Shown here piece by piece: positions 13,445 to 27,947 of a stretch of 64,000 nt of DNA (positions within the stretch are counted from its first letter, which is position 1; every line of letters starts with the position of its first letter). The stretch comes from Sandaracinaceae bacterium (GTDB lineage Bacteria > Myxococcota_A > Polyangia > Polyangiales > Sandaracinaceae). The position numbers and the translations under genes were made by a program. The stretch is from contig JAHBWG010000015.1 in NCBI GenBank assembly GCA_019637095.1, positions 1-64,000 of the forward strand, read 5' to 3'. Below the pieces are notes generated by a model that saw only the letters and a program-made list of their open reading frames with translations, ran no database searches and was not told the DNA's origin.

Positions 13445-14299
13445 TCATCCCTCTTCGAAGAGCTCGTCGAGGCGGCTCGCGGTGAGCGCGCGCTCGAAGA
13501 CGCGCTCGAGCTCCGGGAGCCCGCAGGCGTCGAGCCGGGCGCGCACGGAGTCGCTCGGCGTCAGCCCGCGTCGCGTGAGGACGCCCTCGAGGAGGCGACG
13601 CGTCTGCGCGAGCGCGCCATCCTCGCGACCCTCCTCGCGACCCTCCTCGCGACCCTCCTCGCGACCCTCCTCGCGACCCTCCTCGCGCCCCTCCTCGCGA
13701 CCTTCGTCGCGGACCTCGTCGAGGCTCGCGTAGCCGGCGCGCGCGAGGAGGTTCGAGAGCACGCGCTCGTGCGCCACCCGCCGATCCCAGAGCGCCTCGA
13801 CGGGCACGGGCCGGGAGAGCACCCCCGGTGCTTCGAGCGCCTGACCGGGACCGGCGGTGCGCACCGCTTGGCCCGGCTCGTAGACCTCGACGCGGCGCGG
13901 ACCGATGAGCCGCACGACCCACACCCATCGCGTCCCCGCGTCGAGGAGCTGCACGATCTTCGTCTGGAGCTCGCCCTCGTCCTGACCGACCCCCGCGTAC
14001 TCGACGGCGAGCGGCGGCGCGCCGGCGACCCAGCCCGGGCGATCGGGCACGCGCCCGACCGCGACGTCCGGCGCGCGCAGCGTCCCGGGCTCGATCGCGT
14101 AGCCGACGTCGACGCCCGCCTCCTCGACGAGCGGATCGCTGTCGAGGACCTCGAACCCGTAGCCGGTCCCGCGCGCGCCGTCCGCGCCGGTCGGCGCGAC
14201 CCACACCGCGTGTCCGTCCGACAGCTCGTACGGATCTCCGGCGCGCACCTGATCGACCCGGAACGGGCCGCGGCCGGTTCGCTTCGGCTCGCTGGACAC
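13445..14299 (-). CDS. Uma2/DUF820-family protein with GREE repeat tail
   Basis: A 284-residue protein. The N-terminal part has the core of the Uma2 (DUF820) family, a PD-(D/E)XK nuclease-like fold: PDVAV with an Asp, LAVEYA with a Glu, and a downstream KIVQLLDAGTRWVWVV helix-strand pair. Whether it cuts DNA is unproven; most family members have no tested role. Near residues 200-225 lies a perfect (G-R-E-E)n repeat encoded by a 12-base tandem repeat, then a helical tail. The GTG start has TATCCT six bases upstream. A second Uma2 protein at 21.7 kb also carries a charged tandem repeat in its C-terminal half. Confidence 0.75.
   Translation of the reverse strand: MSSEPKRTGRGPFRVDQVRAGDPYELSDGHAVWVAPTGADGARGTGYGFEVLDSDPLVEEAGVDVGYAIEPGTLRAPDVAVGRVPDRPGWVAGAPPLAVEYAGVGQDEGELQTKIVQLLDAGTRWVWVVRLIGPRRVEVYEPGQAVRTAGPGQALEAPGVLSRPVPVEALWDRRVAHERVLSNLLARAGYASLDEVRDEGREEGREEGREEGREEGREEGREEGREDGALAQTRRLLEGVLTRRGLTPSDSVRARLDACGLPELERVFERALTASRLDELFEEG
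13620..13707. repeat. 12-base in-frame tandem repeat, about 7 copies
   Basis: The unit reads CCTCGCGACCCT on the plus strand and encodes Gly-Arg-Glu-Glu on the minus strand. Copies are nearly identical, with changes only at the ends. Twelve-base steps keep the frame, so copy number could vary by slippage without breaking the gene. Confidence 0.85.
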
Positions 14300-14305
14300 G
14301 GGCCC

Positions 14306-14340: not shown

Positions 14341-15732
<1,392 letters not shown>

Positions 15733-15808: not shown

Positions 15809-17254
15809 TCATTCTCCCGTCAGCTCGACGCGCACGATCGTGCCGCCGCCCTCGCGCGGGAGCGCGGCGATCGCGCCGCCGTGCGCGCGCACGATCACGC
15901 GGCACACCGCGAGCCCGAGGCCCGTCCCGCCCGGGCGGCTCGTGCGGAACGGCTCGAAGATCGCCTCGCGATCCGCTTCGGCGACCCCGGTGCCGCGGTC
16001 GCGCACCTCGACGCGATAGCCGCCGTCGGAGCGCGCGCCCGAGAGCTCGATCGCCGCGCCGGGCTCGGAGTGCTGCGCCGCGTTCGCGAGGAGGTTGTCG
16101 AGCACTTGGCGCAGGCGCACCGGGTCGGCCTCGAGCCACCCCTCGTCGGCCTCGCACGTGAGCGCGACGCGCTCGCCCATCTCGGTGGCCGCGAAGCGCG
16201 CGGCGGTCTCACGGAGTAGCAGGCGGAGCTCGACGCGCTCGAGCGCGAGCGTGGGGTCGCGGCCCGCCGTCAACAAGTCTTCCACGATCCGTTGGCACGC
16301 GGCCGCCTCCTGGTCGAGGATGCGCAGCTCCTCGGCCTGCGCCGCGTCCTTGGCCTCCGGGATCATCGTCCCGAGGTAGCCGCGGATCACCGCGATGGGG
16401 TTGTTGATCTCGTGCGCCACGCCCGCGGCGAGCTGCCCGACCGCGGCGAGCCGCTCGTGCCGGACGAGCGCGCGCTCGCGCTCCCGGAGCTGCTCGACCA
16501 TGGCGTCGAACGCGCGGCCGACGATGCGCAGCTCACCGACCCCGACCTCGCCGACCGGTGGGCTCGGCTCGCCCGCGCCGAGCCGCCGCGCCGCCTCGGT
16601 GAGGCGCGAGAGCGGCGTGAGGATCGCGCGACGCAGTCGCAGGCTGAACGCGATCGCGAGCGCGAACAGCGCCGCGACGCCCGCGCTGCCGGCGACCATC
16701 GCGAGGCGGGTGTCCGCCTCGGCGCGCGCGCGCCGCGCCTCCATGCGGCGCTCGAGCGACGCGACGACGGCGTCGGCAGCGCGCACCGCGCGGTGCGTGT
16801 GCGCCTGCGCCCCCGCGTGCGCGGCGCGCAGCCGCTCCGGCTCACCGCCCATCGCCGCGGGCATGACCTCCTCGCGGAACGCGCGATCGAGCGCTTCGCT
16901 CTCGCGCACCAGCTCGTCGAGCCGGGCCTGCTCCTCGGGCGGCACGCTCGGCCGCAGCCGCCGCGCGCGCTCCTGCAAGCGCACGAGCCAGCTCGCGTGC
17001 GAGTGCATCTCGTGATCGTCGCCCGCGATCACCGTGTGCGCCTCGTGCTGGTAGTGCTCGCGCACCGAGAGCGCGATCGAGAGCGCCTCGCGCGCCGCCT
17101 GCGCGTCCGCGCGCACGTCGTCGAGCGAGCCGCCGACCCGCGCGAGCAAGAGCATCAGCGCCACGCACGAGCACACCCCGAGCGCGGCGATCGCGCCGAA
17201 GCCGATCACGAGCTGCGCGCCGATCGCGTCGTCGCGGCGACCGAGCGACCTCAT
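15809..17254 (-). CDS. membrane histidine kinase, probable copper/silver sensor
   Basis: A 481-residue sensor kinase. Transmembrane helices lie near 13-37 and 186-206, enclosing a periplasmic helical sensor. That sensor has a dense metal-ligand-like cluster (H67, H70, H73, H81, M83, H84, H86), with further His at 146, 152 and 154. A HAMP region follows, then the HisKA box GVAHEINNP with phospho-acceptor His281, and an HATPase domain with N, G1 (DRGTGV) and G2 (GGTGLGL) boxes. The neighbouring regulator is its obvious partner. The order cusA, cupredoxin, kinase, regulator with short gaps suggests one transcript. Metal identity is inferred from the locus and the His/Met cluster. Confidence 0.88.
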   Translation of the reverse strand: MRSLGRRDDAIGAQLVIGFGAIAALGVCSCVALMLLLARVGGSLDDVRADAQAAREALSIALSVREHYQHEAHTVIAGDDHEMHSHASWLVRLQERARRLRPSVPPEEQARLDELVRESEALDRAFREEVMPAAMGGEPERLRAAHAGAQAHTHRAVRAADAVVASLERRMEARRARAEADTRLAMVAGSAGVAALFALAIAFSLRLRRAILTPLSRLTEAARRLGAGEPSPPVGEVGVGELRIVGRAFDAMVEQLRERERALVRHERLAAVGQLAAGVAHEINNPIAVIRGYLGTMIPEAKDAAQAEELRILDQEAAACQRIVEDLLTAGRDPTLALERVELRLLLRETAARFAATEMGERVALTCEADEGWLEADPVRLRQVLDNLLANAAQHSEPGAAIELSGARSDGGYRVEVRDRGTGVAEADREAIFEPFRTSRPGGTGLGLAVCRVIVRAHGGAIAALPREGGGTIVRVELTGE

Positions 17255-17301: not shown

Positions 17302-17649
17302 TCACTCGACCACGATCGCGCCGTCGTACATGTCCATCCCGCACGTGAAGCGCAGCGAGCCCGCCGCGCTCGGGGTGAGCGCGATCTCGACCGGCTGGTT
17401 CAAGGGCAGATCGCGGCGGATGTCGTGCGACGGGATCGCGAGGACCTCGCCGCAGCCCTCCTCGCTGGTGCGCGTGAACACGAGCAGGAGCGGCTCACCC
17501 GCGCGCGCGCGCACTTCGCTCGGGGTGTAGCCGCTGGCGCTCACCTCGATCGCGACGCGACGGGCGGCGGGCGCGCTCGCCTCTCCACCGCCGCAGGCGG
17601 TGAGCGCGAGCAGCGCGGACAGGCTCAGGGCACGGAGGGCTCGGGGCAT
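17302..17649 (-). CDS. cupredoxin-like lipoprotein
   Basis: A 115-residue lipoprotein (lipobox LTAC, Cys near residue 19) with a small beta-barrel domain of the cupredoxin type. Candidate copper ligands are the Cys of EEGCGE, His of PSHD, and the Cys and Met residues of FTCGMDMYDG near the C-terminus. It would bind copper in the periplasm or at the membrane and could deliver it to, or buffer it for, the Cus pump. Its ATG lies inside the end of cusA (25-base overlap), so translation is probably coupled. Confidence 0.8.
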   Translation of the reverse strand: MPRALRALSLSALLALTACGGGEASAPAARRVAIEVSASGYTPSEVRARAGEPLLLVFTRTSEEGCGEVLAIPSHDIRRDLPLNQPVEIALTPSAAGSLRFTCGMDMYDGAIVVE

Positions 17650-20600
17650 CGGTCGTCGTCTCCTTCTTCGTCGTTCGGTTCGTCGGACTCGTCGGACTCG
17701 TCGGGCTCGTCAGGCTCGTCGGCTTCGCGCGCCGGTGCGTCGTCGCGAGGATCGTGGCCGGCGCGCTTCACCCGGCGCTCTTCGACCCACGCGTAGAGCA
17801 CGGGCACGACGAACAGGGTCATGAGCTCGATCACCATCCCACCGACCGACGGGAGCGCCATCGGCACCATCACGTCCGCGCCGCGGCCCGGTGAGGTGAC
17901 CACGGGGGCGAGCGCGAGGATCGTCGTCGCGGTCGTCATCAGGCACGGGCGCAGCCGCCGCGTCCCGGCCTCGAGCACCCGCGCGCGCACGTCGGCGATC
18001 GAGGCCGCCGGCCCGTCGCGGAAGCGCTGCGCGAGGTAGGTGCTGATCACCACGCCGTCGTCGGTCGCGACGCCGATCAGGGCGATGACGCCGACCCAGA
18101 CCGCGACCGAGAGGTTCACCGGGCCGACGCGGAAGAGCTCGCGCATCGACGTCTCGAAGACCGTGAGGTCGAGGAACCACGGCTGGGCGTAGAGCCAGAG
18201 CAGCAGGAAGGCGCCGCTCACCGCGACGGCGACGCCGCTGCCGATGATCACGGTCGTCGAGATGCGCCGGAACTGGAGGTAGAGGAGCAGGAACACCAGC
18301 GCGAGCGCGAGCGGGATGAGGACACGCAGGCGCGCCTCGCTCCGCAGCTGCGCCTCGTAGGTGCCGGCGAACGTGAAGCGCACGCCCGCGGGCACCTCGA
18401 GCGCGCCCGACGCGATCTGTGCCTCGAGGAAGCGCTGCGCCGCCTCGACCGCGTTGGCGTCGGGCACGTCGGCGCGCCGATCGAAGAGCACGTAGCTCGT
18501 CAAGAAGGTGTCCTCGCTGCGGATCATCTCCGGCCCGCGCACGTAGCGCAGGTGCGCGAGCTGTCCGAGCGGGACCGCCTCGCCCGAGGGCGCCGGCACC
18601 ATCACGCGCTCGAGCGCCTCGACGCCGTCGCGTTCCTCGCGCATGTACCGGACGCGGACGGGGTAGCGCTCGCGGCCCTCGACCGTGCTCGTCAGCGGCG
18701 CGCCGCCGAGCGCAATCGACAGCACGTCTTGCACGGCGACGATCGTCAGCCCGTAGCGGGCGATCGCCTCGCGGTCGAGGACGATCTCGAGGTAGGGCTT
18801 GCCGACGACGCGCTCCGCGAAGACCGTCTCGGGCCGGACCTCGGGGACCTCGCGGAGCAGCTCCTCGACGCGGCGGGCGAAGCGCTCGATCGTCTCGAGG
18901 TCGGGGCCCTGCACCTTCACCCCCATGGCGGCGCGCATCCCGCTCTGGAGCATCACGACGCGCGCGGCGATCGGCATGAGCATCGGCGCGCCGGTGAGGC
19001 CGGGCGCGCCGGCGGCGCGGCTCACCTCGTCCCAGATGTCGCGCGGGCTGCGGATGTGCTCGCGCCATTGTCGCACCCGGGTTCCGTCGGAGAGGACGCG
19101 GTACTCCGGGCGATAGGTGACGATCGTCTCGATCATCGAGGTCGGCGCCGGATCGAGCGCGCTCGCCGCGCGGCCCCACTTGCCGACGACGCGATCGACC
19201 TCCGGGACCTCTGCGATCGCCGCGTCCATCCGGGCGAGCGCGTCGCGCACCTCGCCGGCCGAGGCGTGCGGCATCGTGGTCGGCATGTAGAGGTAGGCGC
19301 CCTCGTCGAAGGGCGGCATGTACTCGCGGCCCAGGCCCGGCAACGCGCGGGCGAGCTTCTGCGCCGCCGCGCTGTCTCGCGCGCCCTCGGGCAGCGCGTC
19401 GAGGACACGCCCCGCGCCGAGCCACACGAGCAGCCCGAGCACGACGAGCGCGGCGGGGAACGCGAGGAAGGCGGCCTTGTGGCGCAGGAACAGCCGCAAG
19501 AGGTGCGGGTACGCGAGCGTGAAGAGCTTGAACGGCCCGAGCACGAGCGCGACGAGCCCGCCGACGAATACGGCGTTGAGCAGCGCGCCGCGCGCCGGCC
19601 CGAGCGGCGACCAGTCCGTCGCGAGCGCGAGCGTGACGCCGATCGCGGCGAGGGCGAGCTCCGCGCGCTCGATCCACGTCGCGACGCGCGGCGGCAGCAG
19701 CGGGCGCGCGAGCCGGCTGACCCCGAGCGCCACCACGAACGCGCCCGCCGCGAGGCTCCACGTCGCGAGCGCCGCGCCCGCCGCGACCAAGAGCCAGTCG
19801 CGCGCGTGCGCGACGCGGAAGATCGAGCGGATCACCCGCGCGAGCCCGCCCGCCGGCGACGCCTCGGGCGCGGCCGGCCGCCGGCGCAAGACGACGTGCG
19901 CGAGCGCGGGCAGCACGAGCACCCCGATGAGGAACGCCCCGCCCATCGCGAAGGTCTTGGCGTACGCGAGCGGCGCGAAGAGGCGCGCCTCCGCCGCCGT
20001 CAGCCCGAACACCGGCAGGAAGCTCACCACCGTCGTCGCCACGCTGGTGAGCACCGCCGGCGCCACCTCGGCCGCCGCGGCCGTCACGACGGCGCCGCGG
20101 TCCGCGTCGGGCGCCGCCTCGTCGAGGTGCTGGACCACGTTCTCCGCGAGCACGATCCCGATGTCGACCATCGTCCCGATCGCGATCGCGATCCCGCCCA
20201 GGGCCATGAGGTTCGCGTCGACGCCCGCGTAGCGCATCACCACGAGCGCGAAGAGCACGCCGAGCGGCAGCAGCGAGCCGACGACCACCGACGTGCGCAG
20301 GTTCCCGAGCAGGACGAGCACCACGATCACCGTGATGAGCAGCTGCTGCCAGAGCGCCGTCGAGAGCGTGTCGACCGTCTCGTCGATGAGCTCTGCGCGA
20401 TCGTAGAACGGCACGATCGTCACCTGGCTGACGGTTCCGTCCTCGAGCGTGCGGCGGGGCAAGCCGGGCGCGATCTCCGCGATGCGCGCGTTCACGCCGT
20501 CGATCACCGCGCGCGGGTTGCCGCGGAAGCGCGCGACCACCACGCCGCCCACGGCCTCGGCGCCCGCGTCGTCGAGCCCGCCGGCGCGCAGCGCCGGCCC

Positions 20601-21506
20601 GAGGTGCACGTGGGCCACGTCGCGCACGCGGATCGGCGTGTTGTCGCGCTCTCGGACCACCACCGCCTCGAGGTCGGCGAGCGCGCGCACGAACCCCACG
20701 CCGCGCAGCACGTACTCGACGCGGTTGATCTCCATCGTGCGCGCGCCGACGTCGAGGTTCGACTCGCGCACCGCGCGCGCGACGTCCGGGAGCGCGACGC
20801 CGTGCGCGCGCAGCGCGTCCGGGTCCACGTCGACCTGGTACTCGCGCACGTGCCCGCCGATCGAGGCCACCTCGCTCACGCCCGCGACCGACGAGAGCGC
20901 GTAGCGCACCGTCCAGTCCTGGATGCTCCGCAGCTCGTGCAGGTCCCACCCGCCGACGGTGCGCCCCTCGGGATCGCGCCCCTCGAGCGTGTACCAGAAC
21001 ACCTGGCCGAGCGCGGTCGCGTCGGGCCCGAGCGTCGGCGACACGCCTTCGGGCAGCGTCCCCGGCGCGAGCGACGCGAGCTTCTCGAGCAAGCGCGAGC
21101 GCGAGAAGTAGAAGTCGACGCCGTCCTCGAAGACCACGTAGATCATCGAGACCCCGAGCGCGCTCGAGCTGCGCACCGTGCGCACGCCCGCGACGCCGAG
21201 GAGCGCCGTCGTCAGCGGGTAGGTGACCTGATCCTCGACGTCGCGCGGGGAGCGACCGGGCCACTCCGTGAACACGATCTGCTGGTTCTCTCCGACGTCC
21301 GGGATCGCGTCGACGGGGATCGGGTCGCGCTCGAGCCAGTCGAACGAGAGCGCGTCGAACGGCGCGACGCGCAGCCCCGCGAGCAGCAGGAGCCCGACGA
21401 GGACCGCGACGACGACCTTCGCGTCGACGAAGAAGCCGAGCACGCGCGCCCACGCCCCGCTCGGCGGGGGAGCGACCCCGGGGGCATCGTCGTCGGCGCG
21501 GCGCAC
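17625..21506 (-). CDS. cusA: CusA-type heavy-metal RND efflux pump
   Basis: An inner-membrane RND pump of about 1,293 residues that would export Cu(I)/Ag(I) with CusB and CusC. Family marks include DAIPDVGENQQIVFTEW, GTMVDIGIVLAEN, MPPFDEGAYLYMP, DPAPTSMIET and the Met-rich QSGMRAAMGVKVQGP, which fit the Cu/Ag branch better than the Co/Zn/Cd branch. It is well over 1,047 residues (E. coli CusA). About 110 extra residues with three to four hydrophobic segments sit near 545-655, and an acidic Asp/Glu/Ser tail with one Cys ends the protein. I place the start at GTG 21506 because the sigma-54 promoter lies just upstream; the open frame continues to a GTG at 21569, but that would be upstream of the promoter. 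Another possible start is GTG 21443. Confidence 0.88.
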   Translation of the reverse strand: MRRADDDAPGVAPPPSGAWARVLGFFVDAKVVVAVLVGLLLLAGLRVAPFDALSFDWLERDPIPVDAIPDVGENQQIVFTEWPGRSPRDVEDQVTYPLTTALLGVAGVRTVRSSSALGVSMIYVVFEDGVDFYFSRSRLLEKLASLAPGTLPEGVSPTLGPDATALGQVFWYTLEGRDPEGRTVGGWDLHELRSIQDWTVRYALSSVAGVSEVASIGGHVREYQVDVDPDALRAHGVALPDVARAVRESNLDVGARTMEINRVEYVLRGVGFVRALADLEAVVVRERDNTPIRVRDVAHVHLGPALRAGGLDDAGAEAVGGVVVARFRGNPRAVIDGVNARIAEIAPGLPRRTLEDGTVSQVTIVPFYDRAELIDETVDTLSTALWQQLLITVIVVLVLLGNLRTSVVVGSLLPLGVLFALVVMRYAGVDANLMALGGIAIAIGTMVDIGIVLAENVVQHLDEAAPDADRGAVVTAAAAEVAPAVLTSVATTVVSFLPVFGLTAAEARLFAPLAYAKTFAMGGAFLIGVLVLPALAHVVLRRRPAAPEASPAGGLARVIRSIFRVAHARDWLLVAAGAALATWSLAAGAFVVALGVSRLARPLLPPRVATWIERAELALAAIGVTLALATDWSPLGPARGALLNAVFVGGLVALVLGPFKLFTLAYPHLLRLFLRHKAAFLAFPAALVVLGLLVWLGAGRVLDALPEGARDSAAAQKLARALPGLGREYMPPFDEGAYLYMPTTMPHASAGEVRDALARMDAAIAEVPEVDRVVGKWGRAASALDPAPTSMIETIVTYRPEYRVLSDGTRVRQWREHIRSPRDIWDEVSRAAGAPGLTGAPMLMPIAARVVMLQSGMRAAMGVKVQGPDLETIERFARRVEELLREVPEVRPETVFAERVVGKPYLEIVLDREAIARYGLTIVAVQDVLSIALGGAPLTSTVEGRERYPVRVRYMREERDGVEALERVMVPAPSGEAVPLGQLAHLRYVRGPEMIRSEDTFLTSYVLFDRRADVPDANAVEAAQRFLEAQIASGALEVPAGVRFTFAGTYEAQLRSEARLRVLIPLALALVFLLLYLQFRRISTTVIIGSGVAVAVSGAFLLLWLYAQPWFLDLTVFETSMRELFRVGPVNLSVAVWVGVIALIGVATDDGVVISTYLAQRFRDGPAASIADVRARVLEAGTRRLRPCLMTTATTILALAPVVTSPGRGADVMVPMALPSVGGMVIELMTLFVVPVLYAWVEERRVKRAGHDPRDDAPAREADEPDEPDESDESDEPNDEEGDDDRCPEPSVP

Positions 21507-21519
21507 GCCCGCGCGCACG

Positions 21520-21535
21520 AGCGAGCCCCGTGCCA
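21520..21535 (-). promoter_or_regulatory. sigma-54 promoter of cusA (-24/-12)
   Basis: The minus strand reads TGGCACGGGGCTCGCT. GG at -24 and GC at -12 have the exact sigma-54 spacing (consensus TGGCACG-N4-TTGCW, one mismatch). The predicted transcription start is near 21509, three bases before the chosen GTG. Identical elements precede cusB and cusC. Confidence 0.8.
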
Positions 21536-21560
21536 GCCTCGCGCGCGCCCGCGAAGCGCC

Positions 21561-21585
21561 TGCGGCCACCGTCCGTGTGGCCGCA
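21561..21585. promoter_or_regulatory. inverted repeat between activator site and cusA promoter
   Basis: TGCGGCCAC, seven bases, GTGGCCGCA: a perfect nine-base-arm hairpin. Hairpins of different sequence occupy the same place in the other two cassettes. It has no T-tract, so a simple intrinsic terminator is unlikely. Confidence 0.55.
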
Positions 21586-21598
21586 CCAACCGGGCGCT

Positions 21599-21615
21599 GT
21601 GACCCCCGAGGTCAC
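21599..21615. promoter_or_regulatory. candidate activator site GTGACC-N5-GGTCAC upstream of cusA
   Basis: A perfect six-base-arm palindrome with a five-base spacer, 63 bases upstream of the -24 element. The same arms, spacer and flanking GCGC-type bases occur before cusB and cusC. It is the probable enhancer site for the adjacent NtrC-type regulator. Confidence 0.75.
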
Positions 21616-21699
21616 TGGCTCCCCAACCCGAACGCGAAGCCGATCACGCGGTCCTCGTGATGAGCGACGCACGCTCCGAGGTGCTCGGGTTGGTGTCGC

Positions 21700-22704
21700 T
21701 CAGTCGGTCGCGAACAGCTCGTCGGCTCGCGCGACGTCGAACACCCGCGACGCCCAGTCGCTCAGGACGGCGACGTCGGCTTCGGCTTCGACGCGCGCAC
21801 GCTGCGCGTCGGTGAGCGCGAGGCCCCGCGCGCGGCACGCCTCGACGACCGTGCGGGCGAGCGCGGCACGCAGCCGCGCCTCGCGCTCGAGCGCGTGGTC
21901 TCTCGCGCGCGCTGCCGCTTCGCGCTCCCGCTCCGCCGCTTCGCGCTCCCGCTCCGCCGCTTCGCGCTCCCGCTCCGCCGCTTCGCGCTCCCGCTCCGCC
22001 GCTTCGAGGGCGCTCTGGCGGTCGTCGGCGATCCCCTGCAGGCGCGCGACGAGCTCCGCGGCGTCCGGGACCATGGAGGCGTTCGCGAAGAAGCGCAGCC
22101 GCTTGCCCACCGTGGCGAGCTCGAGCCCGAGGACCACCGAGCGCAGATAGCCCCCCTGCGGCACGATCGGCTGGTACCCCCCGCCCGCCGCGCCGAGGCG
22201 CCATCCGCGCAGGTGCCCGTGCACGCAGTCGAAGCTGAAGTACTCCGGGATCCCGAGCCGCGCGTAGTCGCGCACGTTCTCGACGAGGTCTTTGTGCTTG
22301 CGGCCGAGGTTGCGCACCTCGATGACCAGATCGATCCCCCGCCCCTGGTCGAGCACCACCCAGGTGTCGGGCTCGATGTCCGGGTCGCAGTCCACCACGG
22401 CGAGCACGTCCGGCACGATCATCGGCTCGCCTGGATAGAGCACGGCGAGCTCGGTCGCGAGGAACACGGGCCGGCCTGCGCGCCGGAAGTGTCCGTCGAG
22501 GTCGGCGCCGATCCCCGTCTTGTTCTTGGAGTGCCGCACCCCCTCGGCCATCGCCTCCAGGTACTCGTGCTCCACGAGGAGGATCTCCTCGATCACCCGC
22601 TCGCGCTCCTCCGGCGAGAGCCGCGCCCACGTGGCCTCGTCCGGGAAGACGATGCGCGGATCGTCCCAGAGGCGCTTGGGGGCCGACGGGATGGGGCTCC
22701 GCAT
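21700..22704 (-). CDS. Uma2/DUF820-family protein with AEREREA heptad repeats
   Basis: A 334-residue protein. The Uma2 nuclease-like core covers about 50-190, with PDVLAVVD (Asp), DLVIEVRN (Glu) and a following Lys/His-rich helix. After it comes a region of four to five near-perfect AEREREA heptads (about 230-265), which would form a long charged helix, then a helical tail. It lies between cusB and cusA on the same strand but has its own TACACT hexamer seven bases before the ATG, so it need not share their control. No metal-related feature is visible. Function unknown; DNA cleavage is only a family-level possibility. Confidence 0.75.
   Translation of the reverse strand: MRSPIPSAPKRLWDDPRIVFPDEATWARLSPEERERVIEEILLVEHEYLEAMAEGVRHSKNKTGIGADLDGHFRRAGRPVFLATELAVLYPGEPMIVPDVLAVVDCDPDIEPDTWVVLDQGRGIDLVIEVRNLGRKHKDLVENVRDYARLGIPEYFSFDCVHGHLRGWRLGAAGGGYQPIVPQGGYLRSVVLGLELATVGKRLRFFANASMVPDAAELVARLQGIADDRQSALEAAEREREAAEREREAAEREREAAEREREAAARARDHALEREARLRAALARTVVEACRARGLALTDAQRARVEAEADVAVLSDWASRVFDVARADELFATD
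21914..22005. repeat. 21-base in-frame tandem repeat, about 4 copies
   Basis: The unit GCCGCTTCGCGCTCCCGCTCC encodes one AEREREA heptad on the minus strand. Copies are identical, which points to recent expansion or ongoing homogenisation. Confidence 0.85.
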
Positions 22705-22711
22705 CCAGGAG

Positions 22712-22717
22712 AGTGTA
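22712..22717 (-). promoter_or_regulatory. -10-like hexamer TACACT, 7 bases before start at 22704
   Basis: TANNNT hexamer in front of the Uma2 gene inside the copper locus. Confidence 0.5.
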
Positions 22718-22761
22718 CGCCGTCGTGCGCGGGCGAGCGATGCGTCGGGACTCCCGGCTCG

Positions 22762-24042
22762 TCACGGGGCGAGCGTGAAGGGAGGCGGCGTGTGGACGAG
22801 CTCGCGGAGCCTCGAGGGCGTGTATGCGCACGCGTCGTCGGCGTCGCCGAACAGACCTCCGCCTTCGAGCGCCCGGGTCTCGTCGTGCCAGCGGCGCTCG
22901 ATCGTCTCGGCGTCGGTGGCGTACAGGCGCGCGCAGGCGACGCGGAGCAGCGTCTGGCTCGAGAACAGCGGAGGGCCGTCGTCGCGCGACAGCAGGCGCG
23001 TGGGGCGACACGGGCACATGCGGCGGGCGTGCGCCCTCGCCACCTCGTCGTCGACCGAGAAGCCGAGGCCCGGGCCCGCGTGCACGATCAGCTCGGGCAC
23101 CCACGCGTCGCGCACGTGGCACTCGGGAACGCGGAGCGGAGCGTGCGTCACGATGTCCGGTCGCCCATCGGCGTCGGCGTCGATCCACCCGTCGATCGTG
23201 ACGCCCTCGGGCAGCGGCACGGGCCGCACGCCCTCGACGCTCGCGGTGAAGAGGGCCTGCGTGCTCGCGCCGTTCGTGTCGTGCGTGCTCAGGGAGGCCT
23301 CGACGCGCCCATCCCCGTCGTAGTCGTGGATCGGGTGAACGCGGCCCGGGCCCCGCTCGCGCTCGCCGAGCGGGTCGAGCTCGTAGTCGAGCCCCTCGCC
23401 GGCCCGCGTCGTCCCGTCTGCGCCGACGTAGGTCAGCCGGCCGCGGACGCGCAGCGGCTGCTCGCGCGCCTCGCGATCGACGGACGCCGACTCGACCGCG
23501 ACGACCCAGGCGCCCTCGCCCGCGCCCACGCATCGGCCGAAGGCGCTCGCGAACACGCGCAGCCGCGCGCTCGGCGGATCACCGAGCACGCCGTCCTCTT
23601 CGTCTGCGATCTGCGCCTCGCGCGCACGCCACGCCTCGGGGATGTCGCGCGGCAACCGCGCGCGCGCCTCGCGCTCGATGCGTGCACACGTCCGCGCGAC
23701 GGCGCCCGTGACCGGCACCTCGAGCGAGGCGATGGTGGGGGCGCACTGGGTCTCGCCCGGGCGCCTCACGCACGCCGTGAGGCTCGGCGGGAGATCGAGC
23801 ACGCACGCGTCGTCGAGGTCCGGGTCGGTGGCCTGCGGCGCGTCCGCGAGCTGCGCGGGGTGCGAGGGCGCTTCGTCCGCGGCGACCACGCGCGGCGCCC
23901 GATCCGCGGCCTCGGGGCCCCCGCAGCCGAGGATCGACAGCACGAGCGCACACGCGAGGCGCGCCCAAGAACGGACCTTCGCCCGCTCGGCGCAGCGGCG
24001 GATGGAACGCGACACCGAGCGCGCTGCCTCGCGAGCGGTCAC
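22762..24042 (-). CDS. lipoprotein with Asp-rich calcium-type (FG-GAP/VCBS-like) repeats
   Basis: A 426-residue protein beginning with a lipoprotein signal (lipobox ILGC). The middle carries two DxDxDG loops, DYDGDGR and DADADGR, as in FG-GAP/VCBS calcium-binding repeats, in a Cys-containing extracytoplasmic domain. I do not recognise a family. The frame is open from GTG 24051, but a TAGAGT hexamer ends seven bases before a second GTG at 24042, which I prefer. It sits between cusB and cusA without obvious metal ligands beyond the Asp loops and Cys residues, so a role in copper handling is uncertain. Confidence 0.65.
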   Translation of the reverse strand: MTAREAARSVSRSIRRCAERAKVRSWARLACALVLSILGCGGPEAADRAPRVVAADEAPSHPAQLADAPQATDPDLDDACVLDLPPSLTACVRRPGETQCAPTIASLEVPVTGAVARTCARIEREARARLPRDIPEAWRAREAQIADEEDGVLGDPPSARLRVFASAFGRCVGAGEGAWVVAVESASVDREAREQPLRVRGRLTYVGADGTTRAGEGLDYELDPLGERERGPGRVHPIHDYDGDGRVEASLSTHDTNGASTQALFTASVEGVRPVPLPEGVTIDGWIDADADGRPDIVTHAPLRVPECHVRDAWVPELIVHAGPGLGFSVDDEVARAHARRMCPCRPTRLLSRDDGPPLFSSQTLLRVACARLYATDAETIERRWHDETRALEGGGLFGDADDACAYTPSRLRELVHTPPPFTLAP

Positions 24043-24049
24043 CGCCAGC

Positions 24050-24055
24050 ACTCTA
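24050..24055 (-). promoter_or_regulatory. -10-like hexamer TAGAGT, 7 bases before start at 24042
   Basis: TANNNT hexamer that favours GTG 24042 over GTG 24051, which it overlaps. Confidence 0.45.
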
Positions 24056-24096
24056 GCAGGTGGGTCGCGACGCCGTGGGCGTCGGCGAAGACTCGG

Positions 24097-25959
24097 TCAA
24101 TGCCGGTGCTCGGCGGTGCGGCCCGGCGGCGCGGCGAGCGCTTCGGTCGCGAGGTGGGCGCCCGGGGCGACGGTCGCGCGGATGCTTCCGCAGGTGCGCA
24201 TCGCGCTGCCGAAGTAGGCGTTGTCGACGACCTCCCGCGCCTGCACCCACTCGGCGCCGCGGTTGTCGAACGCCATCGGGCAGAAGGCGAGCGCGAGCGG
24301 CCGCGCGGTCGGGTTGCCGAAGGTGCGCAGCAGCAACGCGATCTGCTCCGAGACGTGCTCGAACTGCGCGCGCATCGCCTCGATGGAGGCCGCGTCGCGC
24401 GCGAGCCGCGCGTGCATCGCGAGGTGACGCGCGATCGGCTCCCACGCGCGCAGGGCGTCGGCCGGCGCGTCGGGGCGGAACGCGGCGAGCGCGTCGAGGA
24501 GCGCGCCCGTCGCCTCGCGCGCGCCGGCCTCGTCGTCCGCCGCGAGGCGCTCCTGCATGGCGAGGTACGCGTCGACGATCGGGGCGAGCCCCGCGTCCCA
24601 GCCCGCCGGCGTGCGGATGGCGTCGTCGAGCGGTCCGCGCTCGCGGTCGTCGGCGCGCGTCATCATGCTCGGCCCGCCGCGGATCTGGAGGTCCGCGTCG
24701 AGCGTGAACGCGCCCTCGGACACGACGCGCTCGCCCTCGGAGAGGCCGGCGACGACGGGGTAGACGTCGCCCGCGCGCGGGCCGAGCCGCACGACGCGCG
24801 GCTCGTACGTGGGGCGCTCGGCGCCCGGCACCTCGACGTAGACGATCGAGCGGCGCCCGGTGAAGAGCGGCGCCGACGCGGGCACGACGAGCGGCTGCGC
24901 CCCGCCGCCCTCGGGGCCGCGCACGCTCGCCTCGACGAACATGCCCGGCCGCAGCCGCCGGTCCGGGTTCGAAAGCGCGATGCGCACCCGCGCGGTGCGC
25001 CGCCGCGCGTCGATCACCGGGTCGACGAACGCGACGCGCCCCTCGAGCGTCTCGCCCGGGAGCGCCTCGACGCCGAGCTCGACCGTCTGCCCGACCTCGA
25101 GGTGCGCGAGATCGCTCTCGTACGCGTCGAGCTGCGCCCAGAGGCGCGTGAGGTCGGCGACGCGGTAGAGCGTCGCGCCCGTCTCGACGTACGCGCCCTC
25201 CGTCGCGACGCGCTCGATCACCGTGCCGGCGAACGGCGAGCGGATCGACACCTGCCGGTCCGGTCGCTCGGCGCGCTCCATCCGCGCGAGCTCGCCGTCG
25301 GGGATGCCGAGCAGGCGTAGCCGCTGGCGCGCCGCCTCGAGGCCGGCGCTCGCCGCGGTGCGCGACAGCTCGCTCCCGCCGGCGAGGCGCTCGAGCTGGC
25401 GCCGCGCAGTGAGCAGGTCCTGATGGGCCGCGAGCACCTCGGGGCTGTAGAGCGTCGCGACGACCTGCCCGCGCCGCACCTCGACACCGGTCGCGTCGAC
25501 GTGCAGCCGATCGATGCGCCCGCCGATCCACGCGGTGACCGCCGCGAAGGTCGTCTCGTCGTAGTCGACGCGGCCGAGCAGGCGCACCGTCGCGCCGGAC
25601 GCGCTCAGGCGCCGCACGCGCGTCGTGCGCACGCCGGCGATCGCGCGCGCGCGCTCGTCGAGCACCACGCGCGCCTCGCTCGCCTCACCGGCGCCCTCGC
25701 CGACCGGCACGAGGTCCATCCCGCAGAGCGGGCACGTCCCCGGCTCGGTCTGCCGCACCTGCGGGTGCATCGAGCACGTGTAGTTGCGCGCCGGGGCCGC
25801 CTCGCCGTGCGCCTCGTGCGCGCTCGGCTCGCCGGCCGTGCAGCGCCCGAGCCCGAAGCCCGCCGCGACGAGCGCGAGCACGCCGAGCCCGACGCCGAGC
25901 GCGCGCAGCGCCCGCGGCGTCTCGGGCTCGATCGAGGGCTCCGTGTGCGCGCGATCCAT
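24097..25959 (-). CDS. cusB: CusB-type efflux adaptor with heavy-metal-binding and DUF3347 domains
   Basis: A 620-residue periplasmic adaptor linking CusA and CusC. A membrane anchor lies near 17-38. A heavy-metal-binding domain follows (about 59-85; YTCSMHP and CPLCGMDL, the usual Cys/Met/His pattern). The HlyD/CusB beta-barrel, lipoyl and hairpin core covers about 110-370. The C-terminus carries a DUF3347-like helical domain ending with CPMAF, DNAYFGSAM and TCG, which adds more Cys/Met ligands, and the last residues are HRH. E. coli CusB is about 400 residues, so both ends are extended. The ATG is five bases from the predicted start of the sigma-54 transcript. Confidence 0.9.
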   Translation of the reverse strand: MDRAHTEPSIEPETPRALRALGVGLGVLALVAAGFGLGRCTAGEPSAHEAHGEAAPARNYTCSMHPQVRQTEPGTCPLCGMDLVPVGEGAGEASEARVVLDERARAIAGVRTTRVRRLSASGATVRLLGRVDYDETTFAAVTAWIGGRIDRLHVDATGVEVRRGQVVATLYSPEVLAAHQDLLTARRQLERLAGGSELSRTAASAGLEAARQRLRLLGIPDGELARMERAERPDRQVSIRSPFAGTVIERVATEGAYVETGATLYRVADLTRLWAQLDAYESDLAHLEVGQTVELGVEALPGETLEGRVAFVDPVIDARRRTARVRIALSNPDRRLRPGMFVEASVRGPEGGGAQPLVVPASAPLFTGRRSIVYVEVPGAERPTYEPRVVRLGPRAGDVYPVVAGLSEGERVVSEGAFTLDADLQIRGGPSMMTRADDRERGPLDDAIRTPAGWDAGLAPIVDAYLAMQERLAADDEAGAREATGALLDALAAFRPDAPADALRAWEPIARHLAMHARLARDAASIEAMRAQFEHVSEQIALLLRTFGNPTARPLALAFCPMAFDNRGAEWVQAREVVDNAYFGSAMRTCGSIRATVAPGAHLATEALAAPPGRTAEHRH

Positions 25960-25974
25960 CGGCGCGCGCAGAGG

Positions 25975-25990
25975 AGCGAGCCCCGTGCCA
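25975..25990 (-). promoter_or_regulatory. sigma-54 promoter of cusB (-24/-12)
   Basis: The minus strand reads TGGCACGGGGCTCGCT, identical to the cusA and cusC elements. The predicted start is near 25964, about five bases before the cusB ATG. Confidence 0.8.
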
Positions 25991-26026
25991 GCGCCTCGGG
26001 CGCGCGTGAGCGAGCGCCCGAGGCGC
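25991..26026. promoter_or_regulatory. inverted repeat next to cusB promoter
   Basis: GCGCCTCGGGCG and CGCCCGAGGCGC, twelve-base arms around a twelve-base loop, directly upstream of the -24 element. Confidence 0.55.
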
Positions 26027-26054
26027 TCCCTTGTGTCCGCCGAGTGCGGGCGCT

Positions 26055-26071
26055 GTGACCTCGCCGGTCAC
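26055..26071. promoter_or_regulatory. candidate activator site GTGACC-N5-GGTCAC upstream of cusB
   Basis: Perfect palindrome, 64 bases upstream of the -24 element, in the gap between cusC and cusB; same geometry as the other two cassettes. Confidence 0.75.
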
Positions 26072-26158
26072 TCGGCCCGGCGGAGGAGACGGCGGCGGCG
26101 GCAGGTGAGGTCGGGCCTGTCGGGCTCGGGCATCGAGCGCGGAGCGCCGAGCCCACGG

Positions 26159-27484
26159 CTACTCGGCGCGCGCGACGCGGCGGCCGACCACGCGCTCGAG
26201 CCGCGCCCACGCCCGGCCGTGCTCGGCCCGCGCGCGCTCGAGCTCGACGGCGAGCTCGAGCAGCTCGCGCTGCGCGAGCTGGAGGTCCGCGACGCTCGCG
26301 CGGCCGACGGTGTAGGCGCCGATCACCGACTCGAACGCGCTCTGGGCCTGCGGCAGCAGCGTGCGCTCGGTGACGCGGGCGCGCCGGTCGGCGTCCCGCA
26401 CCTCGGAGAGCGCCGCGGCGAGCTCGGCGAGCGCGTCGAGCTCCGCGCTCGCCCCGGCGGCGCGCTCGGCCTCGGCGTCGGCCTCCGCGGCGCGCTGGGC
26501 GTCGTCGTAGGCCTCCTGCCAGAGCGGGATCGTCAACGCGACTTGCAATCCGAGCATGGGATCGGTGTTGCCCGGCATCGGCATCCCGTCGGTCCACTCG
26601 ACGCCGACGGTGAAGGAGGGGAAGCGCGCTCCCTCGGCGGCGCGCGCGGCGTCGTCGCCGGCCTCGGCGAGCCGCTCGAACGAGCGCAGGAACGGGTGCG
26701 CGCGGACCGCGTCCGCCAGCGCCGCGGCGGACTCGGCGGGGAGGCCCAGGGCGGGCTCGCCCTCGGCGCGCGCGTCCTCGGGCAGCTCGCCGCCGACGGC
26801 GGCGCGCAGCGCGGCGCGCGCCGCCTGCGCCTGCTCGTCGAGCCCGTCGATCGCGTCGGCGAGGCGCGCGCGGGACAGCTCCACGCGAGCGAGCTCGGCG
26901 AGCGTCGCCTCGCTCGCCTCGAGCCGCGCGCGCAGCGACTCGGCGAGCCCGCCGAGCAGCTCGAGCTGCTCGCGCCACACGCGCGCGACCCGCTCCACGA
27001 GCCAGAGGCGCCACCACGCGTCGGCGACGCGGGCGGCGACGTCGAGCGCGCGCGCCTCGAAGCGCAGCTGCGCCGCCGCCGCGCGCGCGGACTGTGCGTC
27101 CGCCGCCGCGGTGAGCCGCGTCGGCCAGGGGAAGCTCTGGCTCGCCATCAGGCGGTGGCGCTGGACGTCGAGAGGCAGCGCGAAGAAGGCGTAGCCGATC
27201 ATCGGATCGGGCAGCGCGCGGGCGGGCGCGATGCGCAGCGTCTCGGCGCGCCAGCGCGCGTAACGCTCCCTCAGCTCGGGGCTCGCGGCGAGCGCGAGGG
27301 TCACGTAGCTCTCGAGCCGGCCGTCGCGCGGGGCGGGCGCGGCCTCCGCTCCGCGCGATCGCGGCGCGGCGCGGGCGAGGTCGTGCCGGACCGAGGTCTC
27401 GTAGCGCGCGGCGCACCCGGCGAAGAGGCCGATCGCCAGGAGCGCGGCCCCGAGCGAGCCGGGCCGGAGGTTCGCGCGCGTCAC
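26159..27484 (-). CDS. cusC: CusC/TolC-type outer-membrane efflux lipoprotein
   Basis: A 441-residue outer-membrane factor for the Cus pump: lipoprotein signal (lipobox LFAGC), then two long helical repeats typical of the outer-membrane efflux protein family (LALAASPELRERYARW; later the matching FERLAEAG region), with beta-strand segments such as GVEWTDGMP and LGLQVALTIPLW. It has several Met residues (DPMIGYAFF, GMPMPGNTDPM). The start is placed at GTG 27484, four bases after the predicted sigma-54 transcript start; a GTG at 27514 is in frame but lies within the promoter. It is the first of the efflux genes on this strand. Confidence 0.88.
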   Translation of the reverse strand: MTRANLRPGSLGAALLAIGLFAGCAARYETSVRHDLARAAPRSRGAEAAPAPRDGRLESYVTLALAASPELRERYARWRAETLRIAPARALPDPMIGYAFFALPLDVQRHRLMASQSFPWPTRLTAAADAQSARAAAAQLRFEARALDVAARVADAWWRLWLVERVARVWREQLELLGGLAESLRARLEASEATLAELARVELSRARLADAIDGLDEQAQAARAALRAAVGGELPEDARAEGEPALGLPAESAAALADAVRAHPFLRSFERLAEAGDDAARAAEGARFPSFTVGVEWTDGMPMPGNTDPMLGLQVALTIPLWQEAYDDAQRAAEADAEAERAAGASAELDALAELAAALSEVRDADRRARVTERTLLPQAQSAFESVIGAYTVGRASVADLQLAQRELLELAVELERARAEHGRAWARLERVVGRRVARAE

Positions 27485-27497
27485 GCGGAGGCGCGAG

Positions 27498-27513
27498 AGC
27501 GAGCCCCGTGCCA
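27498..27513 (-). promoter_or_regulatory. sigma-54 promoter of cusC (-24/-12)
   Basis: The minus strand reads TGGCACGGGGCTCGCT, the third identical copy. The predicted start is near 27487. Confidence 0.8.
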
Positions 27514-27516
27514 CGC

Positions 27517-27536
27517 GCCCGCGCCGGCGCGCGGGC
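27517..27536. promoter_or_regulatory. inverted repeat next to cusC promoter
   Basis: GCCCGCGC, four bases, GCGCGGGC. It occupies the same position as the hairpins in the other two cassettes but has an unrelated sequence. Confidence 0.5.
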
Positions 27537-27577
27537 CGCCTCGTGGCGCCGCGCTGTGGCCGAGCCGGACGGGCGGC

Positions 27578-27594
27578 GTGACCGCCTCGGTCAC
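27578..27594. promoter_or_regulatory. candidate activator site GTGACC-N5-GGTCAC upstream of cusC
   Basis: Perfect palindrome 64 bases upstream of the -24 element. It overlaps the stop codon of the TerB-like gene. Confidence 0.75.
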
Positions 27595-27947
27595 GCGCCG
27601 ACGGCGGCCTCGAGGCGCGCGCGGATCGCGCCCTCGTCGACGCCCGCGACCCGGCCGACCGCGACGAGGTAGGCGACCTCCTCCTCGACGATCACCCCAT
27701 CCGCCGCCGCCGCCTGCACCAGCCGCTCGATCACCTCTTCGTGCACCGCCGCGGGCATGCGCGCGAGCGCCTCCGCCGCCTCGTCCCCGTCGAGGATCGG
27801 GAAGATCACCGCGCGCTCGTCCGACGCGATGCCGAGCTCGTCGAGCATCTTGTCGACGAACCGCTCCTCGGCCGGATCGAGCACGTCGTCGGTGACGACG
27901 ATGCCCGCCACCAACTGCGCGACCTTGCGCCGCTCGTCCGGGGTCAT
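27591..27947 (-). CDS. TerB-like small acidic helical protein
   Basis: A 118-residue soluble protein with the helical pattern of the TerB/DjlA N-terminal family: a first half with VAGIVVTDDVLDPAEERFVDKML and a second with VQAAAADGVIVEEEVAYLVAV, both acidic D/E-x-loops of the kind that bind metal in TerB. Family members are linked to tellurite and stress responses, but the biochemical role is not established. A TACGCT hexamer lies seven bases before the ATG. It is upstream of the cusC cassette on the same strand. Confidence 0.75.
   Translation of the reverse strand: MTPDERRKVAQLVAGIVVTDDVLDPAEERFVDKMLDELGIASDERAVIFPILDGDEAAEALARMPAAVHEEVIERLVQAAAADGVIVEEEVAYLVAVGRVAGVDEGAIRARLEAAVGA

Follow-up and report, generated by a model that had tools for sequence, protein, structure and literature searches.

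Three repeated cassettes of a palindrome and a sigma-54-type promoter element in a predicted copper/silver efflux locus of a Sandaracinaceae bacterium

A predicted copper/silver efflux locus of a Sandaracinaceae bacterium carries the same palindrome and the same sigma-54-type promoter element in front of each of its three pump genes, which raises the question of whether one regulator governs all three copies and which regulator that would be. We analysed the locus within a stretch of 64,000 nucleotides (the window) and compared it with related loci. We consider it very probable that a sigma-54 two-component system dedicated to copper/silver efflux operates here, with the three cassettes under the control of its regulator, which is encoded beside the pump genes.

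Cassettes and genes of the locus

On the minus strand, GTGACC-N5-GGTCAC is followed after 64, 64 and 63 bases by the identical element TGGCACGGGGCTCGCT upstream of cusC, cusB and cusA, respectively; reading the coordinates reproduced exactly the triple cassette and the spacer lengths given in a preliminary description of this DNA. The sigma-54 -24/-12 match claimed there also held, with GG at positions 2-3 and GC at positions 14-15, the exact spacing, in all three elements. Sigma-54-like elements were scored with weights made for this analysis from the consensus TGGCACGNNNNTTGCW, to which a form given in a legend of PMC3707914 is nearly identical. A gene for RpoN (sigma-54) is present in the genome. 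The features of the locus are as follows.

27591-27947, minus strand: small TerB-like gene upstream of cusC (PF05099, 4.5e-9)
27578-27594, no strand assigned: candidate operator palindrome of cusC, GTGACC-N5-GGTCAC, centred near -99 relative to the predicted transcript start
27498-27513, minus strand: sigma-54 -24/-12 element of cusC, TGGCACGGGGCTCGCT (read from the sequence)
26159-27484, minus strand: cusC, outer membrane factor with a lipoprotein-type start, GTG at 27484 (PF02321, 9.5e-29, for 26159-27487)
26055-26071, no strand assigned: candidate operator palindrome of cusB, centred near -99 relative to the predicted start
25975-25990, minus strand: sigma-54 element of cusB (motif search)
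24097-25959, minus strand: cusB, periplasmic adaptor with a heavy-metal-binding domain and DUF3347 (PF16576, PF19335, PF11827)
22762-24051, minus strand: predicted lipoprotein between cusB and cusA, without a match in the Pfam search
21700-22704, minus strand: Uma2-type endonuclease-like gene between cusB and cusA (PF05685, 1.2e-15)
21599-21615, no strand assigned: candidate operator palindrome of cusA, centred near -98 relative to the predicted start
21520-21535, minus strand: sigma-54 element of cusA (motif search)
17625-21506, minus strand: cusA, heavy-metal RND transporter, GTG at 21506 (TIGR00914)
17302-17649, minus strand: small cupredoxin lipoprotein overlapping the end of cusA (PF13473, 1.5e-14)
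15809-17254, minus strand: sensor kinase with an N-terminal sensor with conserved His/Met, HAMP, HisKA and HATPase_c (Pfam, alignment)
14341-15732, minus strand: sigma-54-dependent response regulator, REC-AAA+(GAFSGA)-probable HTH (PF00072, PF00158, C-terminal alignment)

The order on the minus strand is TerB-like gene, cusC, cusB, lipoprotein gene, Uma2-like gene, cusA, cupredoxin gene, kinase and regulator. Pfam domains and this order bore out the GAFSGA regulator and the kinase previously placed downstream of cusA; the cupredoxin gene between cusA and the kinase had not been mentioned. The starts of cusC at 27484, chosen by position and a look at the signal peptide, and of cusA at 21506 are presumptive. 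As minor observations, the Uma2-like gene (21700-22704) contains AEREREA repeats, and a gene beyond the regulator (13445-14300), with EGREEGRE repeats near its end, resembles it by eye.

CusA scored above the cut-off of TIGR00914, a mixed CusA/CzcA model (753.1 bits against 701.45), and CusC matched only general outer-membrane-factor models, all below their cut-offs. CusB fell short of the cut-off of the CusB-specific NF007303 (104 bits against 390), and the cus names are therefore used here by analogy. The protein families point to copper/silver as substrate and signal. It is unlikely that the cassettes, though genuine, answer to a different signal, such as zinc, cobalt or envelope stress, the pump being a general heavy-metal exporter. 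The CusA and CusB scores would agree with such a role, as would the response of ZraR-type regulators to zinc and heavy metals described in the accessible part of PMC12316311, but the adjacent cupredoxin gene, the heavy-metal-binding domain on CusB, the cupredoxin genes that adjoin several regulator orthologs and the precedent of CorSR (see below) argue for copper or silver.

The regulator contains a receiver domain (PF00072, 3.3e-26) and a Sigma54_activat domain (PF00158, 7.6e-67). Its GAFTGA loop reads GAFSGA, and 19 of 20 aligned orthologs have GAFTGA, GSFTGA or GSFSGA there, L120 being the exception. The C-terminus gave no Pfam HTH match at 0.001 and has a conserved segment in the ortholog alignment; a VERESFYRL segment is present in most of the 20. 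The regulator did not reach the NCBIfam equivalog cut-offs for ZraR, AtoC, NtrC and GlrR, and plasmid records held only regulator relatives of <60% identity. In the kinase sensor, H70, H73 and H146 occur in 21 of 23 aligned kinases and M171 in 20 of 23.

The host genome (9,253,515 bases in 197 contigs, 96% complete) was searched for both motifs. Throughout these 9.25 Mb, the exact GTGACC-N5-GGTCAC and TGGCACGGGGCTCGCT with at most one mismatch were each found at three places, all in this locus, and GTRACC-N5-GGTYAC was found at the same three sites; from the base composition of the window, 0.85 exact palindromes and 0.03 16-mers would be expected genome-wide. When two mismatches were allowed, the palindrome had 1151 matches per strand, and therefore only close matches are meaningful. 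A combined search for palindrome and promoter found the pattern (GTGACC-N5-GGTYAC, 38-68 bases, TGGCRC-N5-YYGC) three times in this genome.

A recent duplication without selective meaning, with only one cassette in use, is very unlikely to account for the three copies. The spacers are more alike than shuffled sequences, as duplicates would be (10, 3 and 0 of 500 shuffles reached the observed score for the C-B, C-A and B-A pairs), but they differ at many positions while the palindrome halves and the 16-mers are identical, which points to selection on palindromes and promoters. A second half-site, GGMCACA, noticed after the fact, lies 22 bp downstream of the GGTCAC half in 3/3 copies. By eye, possible inverted repeats rich in GC can be made out in the spacers (27514-27577, 25991-26054 and 21536-21598), close to the upstream side of the sigma-54 elements, and a GCCCG block common to the spacers follows the palindromes; we claim no role for either. 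The TGA stop of the TerB-like gene (27591-27594) is embedded in the cusC palindrome.

The palindrome at related loci

Forty loci were selected by regulator or cusB after a search of 144 genomes for relatives of the regulator. Of the 29 that matched the regulator, 28 (48-68% identity) made up the enumeration set; L115 was left out, its kinase being cut by a contig end, and L103 had only 220 bases available. An open enumeration of palindromes (half length 4-6, spacer 0-14) in ~500 bp upstream of the kinase match gave GTGAC-N7-GTCAC as the top palindrome at half length 5, in 11/28 loci; when random segments of these loci were drawn 50 times, this palindrome reached 0-4 and the leading one, whatever its sequence, 3-7. 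GTRACC-N5-GGTYAC, which was chosen after seeing the same 28 loci in which it was then counted, occurred upstream of the kinase exactly in 15/28 and with at most one mismatch in 21/28, compared with 7.5% of random windows of the same loci. In a held-out set of 19 further loci, one of which (L300) shows the kinase only, it was found with at most one mismatch in 7/19 versus 5.2% of random segments (p=3e-5), and exact matches showed no excess (1/19 versus 1.8%). At the same tolerance the palindrome was absent upstream of the kinase in the other 12 held-out loci, two of which (L298 and L299) carry it between the regulator and the cupredoxin gene instead. Palindromes come in pairs 20-23 bp apart in nine loci, the second site having up to two mismatches. 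From these comparisons, we predict that the consensus GTRACC-N5-GGTYAC, new in this analysis, is the operator of the regulator. A tandem pair of such sites, 22 bp apart, was also seen downstream of the cusA homolog of L261 (13525-13563).

Cus loci with CusB of >45% identity were then divided into those with and those without a linked regulator. Loci without both cusB and cusA, or with CusB of ≤45% identity, were dropped from this contrast; examples are L100, L261 and L117, the last of which carries the operator. With a linked regulator, the operator (at most one mismatch) preceded cusC, the cupredoxin gene or the kinase in 7/8 loci (L098, L101, L102, L104, L105, L109 and L296), one site of L101 lying far from a promoter, whereas it was found in 0/10 loci without a linked regulator (L126-L132 and L134-L136; Fisher p=2.5e-4). 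A further cus locus of this second kind, split over two contigs of G002 in the same family, showed no operator either. The ten loci are partly dependent, as L126 and L127 are from a single genus, and L128 and L130 likewise; several lie near a contig end, and the genome of L132 (G017) has the regulator on another contig. When the upstream region of the kinase, which exists in the first group only, was left out, the counts were 5/8 versus 0/10 (p=0.0065). The comparison thus favors the earlier suggestion that the regulator uses the palindromes, which are enriched at the loci of its orthologs and were not found at the ten cus loci without it.

It is very unlikely that the palindromes are sites of some other regulator, such as a repressor, with the NtrC-type regulator working at a different place. 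In favor of this reading, the operator is missing upstream of the kinase in the 12 held-out loci and is absent from the closest relative, L097 (regulator 67%), which has a similar sigma-54 element before cusC and no recognizable palindrome. Against this, the palindromes track the regulator gene and not the pump genes, they lie at the usual upstream distance from sigma-54 elements, and they are paired in the nine loci mentioned above.

Relatives that have the regulator linked have cusC, cusB and cusA side by side, and an operator before cusB or cusA alone was seen in none of the 18 relatives' loci. The arrangement of one cassette per pump gene, unique in this sample, is therefore probably derived: the operon was probably split between cusB and cusA, with each of the resulting units retaining or acquiring a cassette.

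Proposed regulation and predicted transcripts

In the mechanism that we propose for control by the adjacent regulator, the kinase (15809-17254) would sense periplasmic metal and phosphorylate the NtrC-type regulator (14341-15732). Regulator dimers would bind the three palindromes, ~98-99 bp upstream of the predicted starts, oligomerisation would be aided by the half-site two helical turns (22 bp) closer to the promoter, a weaker site, and the regulator would act on sigma-54 polymerase, remodeling it at all three promoters, which are identical. This would give three units with the same wiring: cusC; cusB, possibly together with the two genes that follow it; and cusA-cupredoxin-kinase-regulator, which would provide positive feedback. 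The kinase gene carries an operator in many relatives. At this locus, a search of the 350 bp that precede the cupredoxin gene and of those that precede the kinase gave no operator, so both are probably transcribed from the cusA promoter. The positive feedback put forward in the preliminary description is plausible, as the cupredoxin, kinase and regulator genes closely follow cusA on the same strand, and the cusA promoter may thus drive its own kinase and regulator.

Counting 12 nt from the -12 C gave predicted transcript starts at 27487, 25964 and 21509. With start codons GTG at 27484, ATG at 25959 and GTG at 21506, the predicted leaders of cusC, cusB and cusA are 3, 5 and 3 nt, respectively. 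No Shine-Dalgarno-like stretch was found before these three genes, and one is present before the cupredoxin gene and the kinase; this absence is weak evidence because the regulator, lipoprotein, Uma2-like and TerB-like genes also lack such a stretch. We tentatively propose, as a possibility that we consider rather less than even, that the three predicted sigma-54 transcripts have leaders of just 3-5 nt and yield the pump proteins from almost leaderless messages in fixed proportion, that the three sites make up the whole regulon of the regulator, and that operator, promoter and start codon form a portable module copied gene by gene as an operon breaks up.

Known systems and wider occurrence

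In ZraSR and other NtrC-type systems, palindromic sites lie ~100 bp upstream of a -24/-12 promoter, and the systems are autoregulated. The locus shares with them a REC-AAA+ regulator with a GAFTGA-type loop and differs in its gene neighborhood and in a regulator that scores below the equivalog cut-offs. E. coli CusRS-CusCFBA likewise joins an RND copper/silver exporter to a two-component system; CusR is OmpR-type and is not known to work with sigma-54, and its pump operon has one promoter. In Myxococcus xanthus, according to the accessible part of PMC3707914, the sigma-54 regulator and kinase CorSR control the copper-induced curA operon that contains both; among the products of its nine genes are a cupredoxin, a multicopper oxidase and a P-type ATPase and no RND pump, and a putative sigma-54 promoter precedes each of four genes of the cluster (A, B, C and G). 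Compared by described features, the two loci have in common a sigma-54 regulator with its kinase, a cupredoxin gene, several sigma-54-like promoters and a regulator that controls its own operon (predicted here). They differ in that the curA operon has the P-type ATPase and the multicopper oxidase, whereas the locus here has an RND pump.

As far as the accessible text goes, the main text of PMC3707914 does not mention 'binding site', 'palindrom' or 'NtrC', the survey of sigma-54 regulons in PMC12316311 does not mention copper, and PMC8836040 does not mention cusA. PMC3333781 makes no mention of metal or copper, and PMC10141476 none of NtrC, sigma54 or CorSR. A literature search joining the NtrC family, copper resistance and RpoN found no paper, and one on enhancer binding proteins, copper, operators and Myxococcota gave nothing relevant among the matches listed. 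We regard the locus as a previously undescribed variant of the known sigma-54 copper two-component systems, with three operators in the whole genome and one cassette per pump gene. New here are the operator consensus, the 22-bp half-site, the predicted leaders of 3-5 nt and the finding of no operator before cusB or cusA alone in 18 relatives' loci. As the proposed operator of a sigma-54 metal two-component family in this order and, more patchily, in the phylum, GTRACC-N5-GGTYAC would let the regulons of that family be read from sequence. With three promoters under one switch and with different spacers, the locus offers a natural replicate for seeing which parts of a sigma-54 promoter are under selection, and it bears on how regulation survives when a pump operon falls apart.

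In the phylum, the regulator found relatives in 16/282 genomes at E 1e-120 and the kinase in 33/377 genomes at E 1e-48. A looser cassette pattern matched 34 of the 144 relatives' genomes. In a collection of 84,980 species, a loose cassette pattern matched at least 115 stretches, with many actinobacteria among the 80 named; among the 115 matches listed, six loci had regulator, cupredoxin or cus homologs and two more had a weak kinase match only. Most of the matches listed lack such neighbors, so the loose pattern is of little use outside the class. Within the class, the cassette pattern alone matched 12/317 genomes, the host genome three times and 11 others once each. A regulator ortholog lies beside the match in 6 of these 11 (G016, G076, G133, G143, G567 and G583), the first four of which were known before this search. 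In G033, the match lies upstream of a cusB homolog (32% identity), and in G562 it lies ~3 kb from a cupredoxin gene. Three others (G508, G015 and G083) showed no regulator, cus or cupredoxin neighbor close by; in G015 and G083, palindromes of the operator type are scattered more widely in the genome.

Four operators fall in a 4-kb stretch of the G562 cluster (L323:7900-12000), and three of these are accompanied by sigma-54-like elements. Nearby lie a cupredoxin gene and genes that, from a reading of their translations, look TolC-like, TonB-receptor-like and Rieske-like. Copper-type clusters with more than one cassette thus seem not to be confined to this genome. The preliminary description had called the repeated arrangement unusual; given the several putative sigma-54 promoters of the curA cluster and of L323, this does not hold for several promoters as such, and the word fits the presence of one cassette per pump gene.
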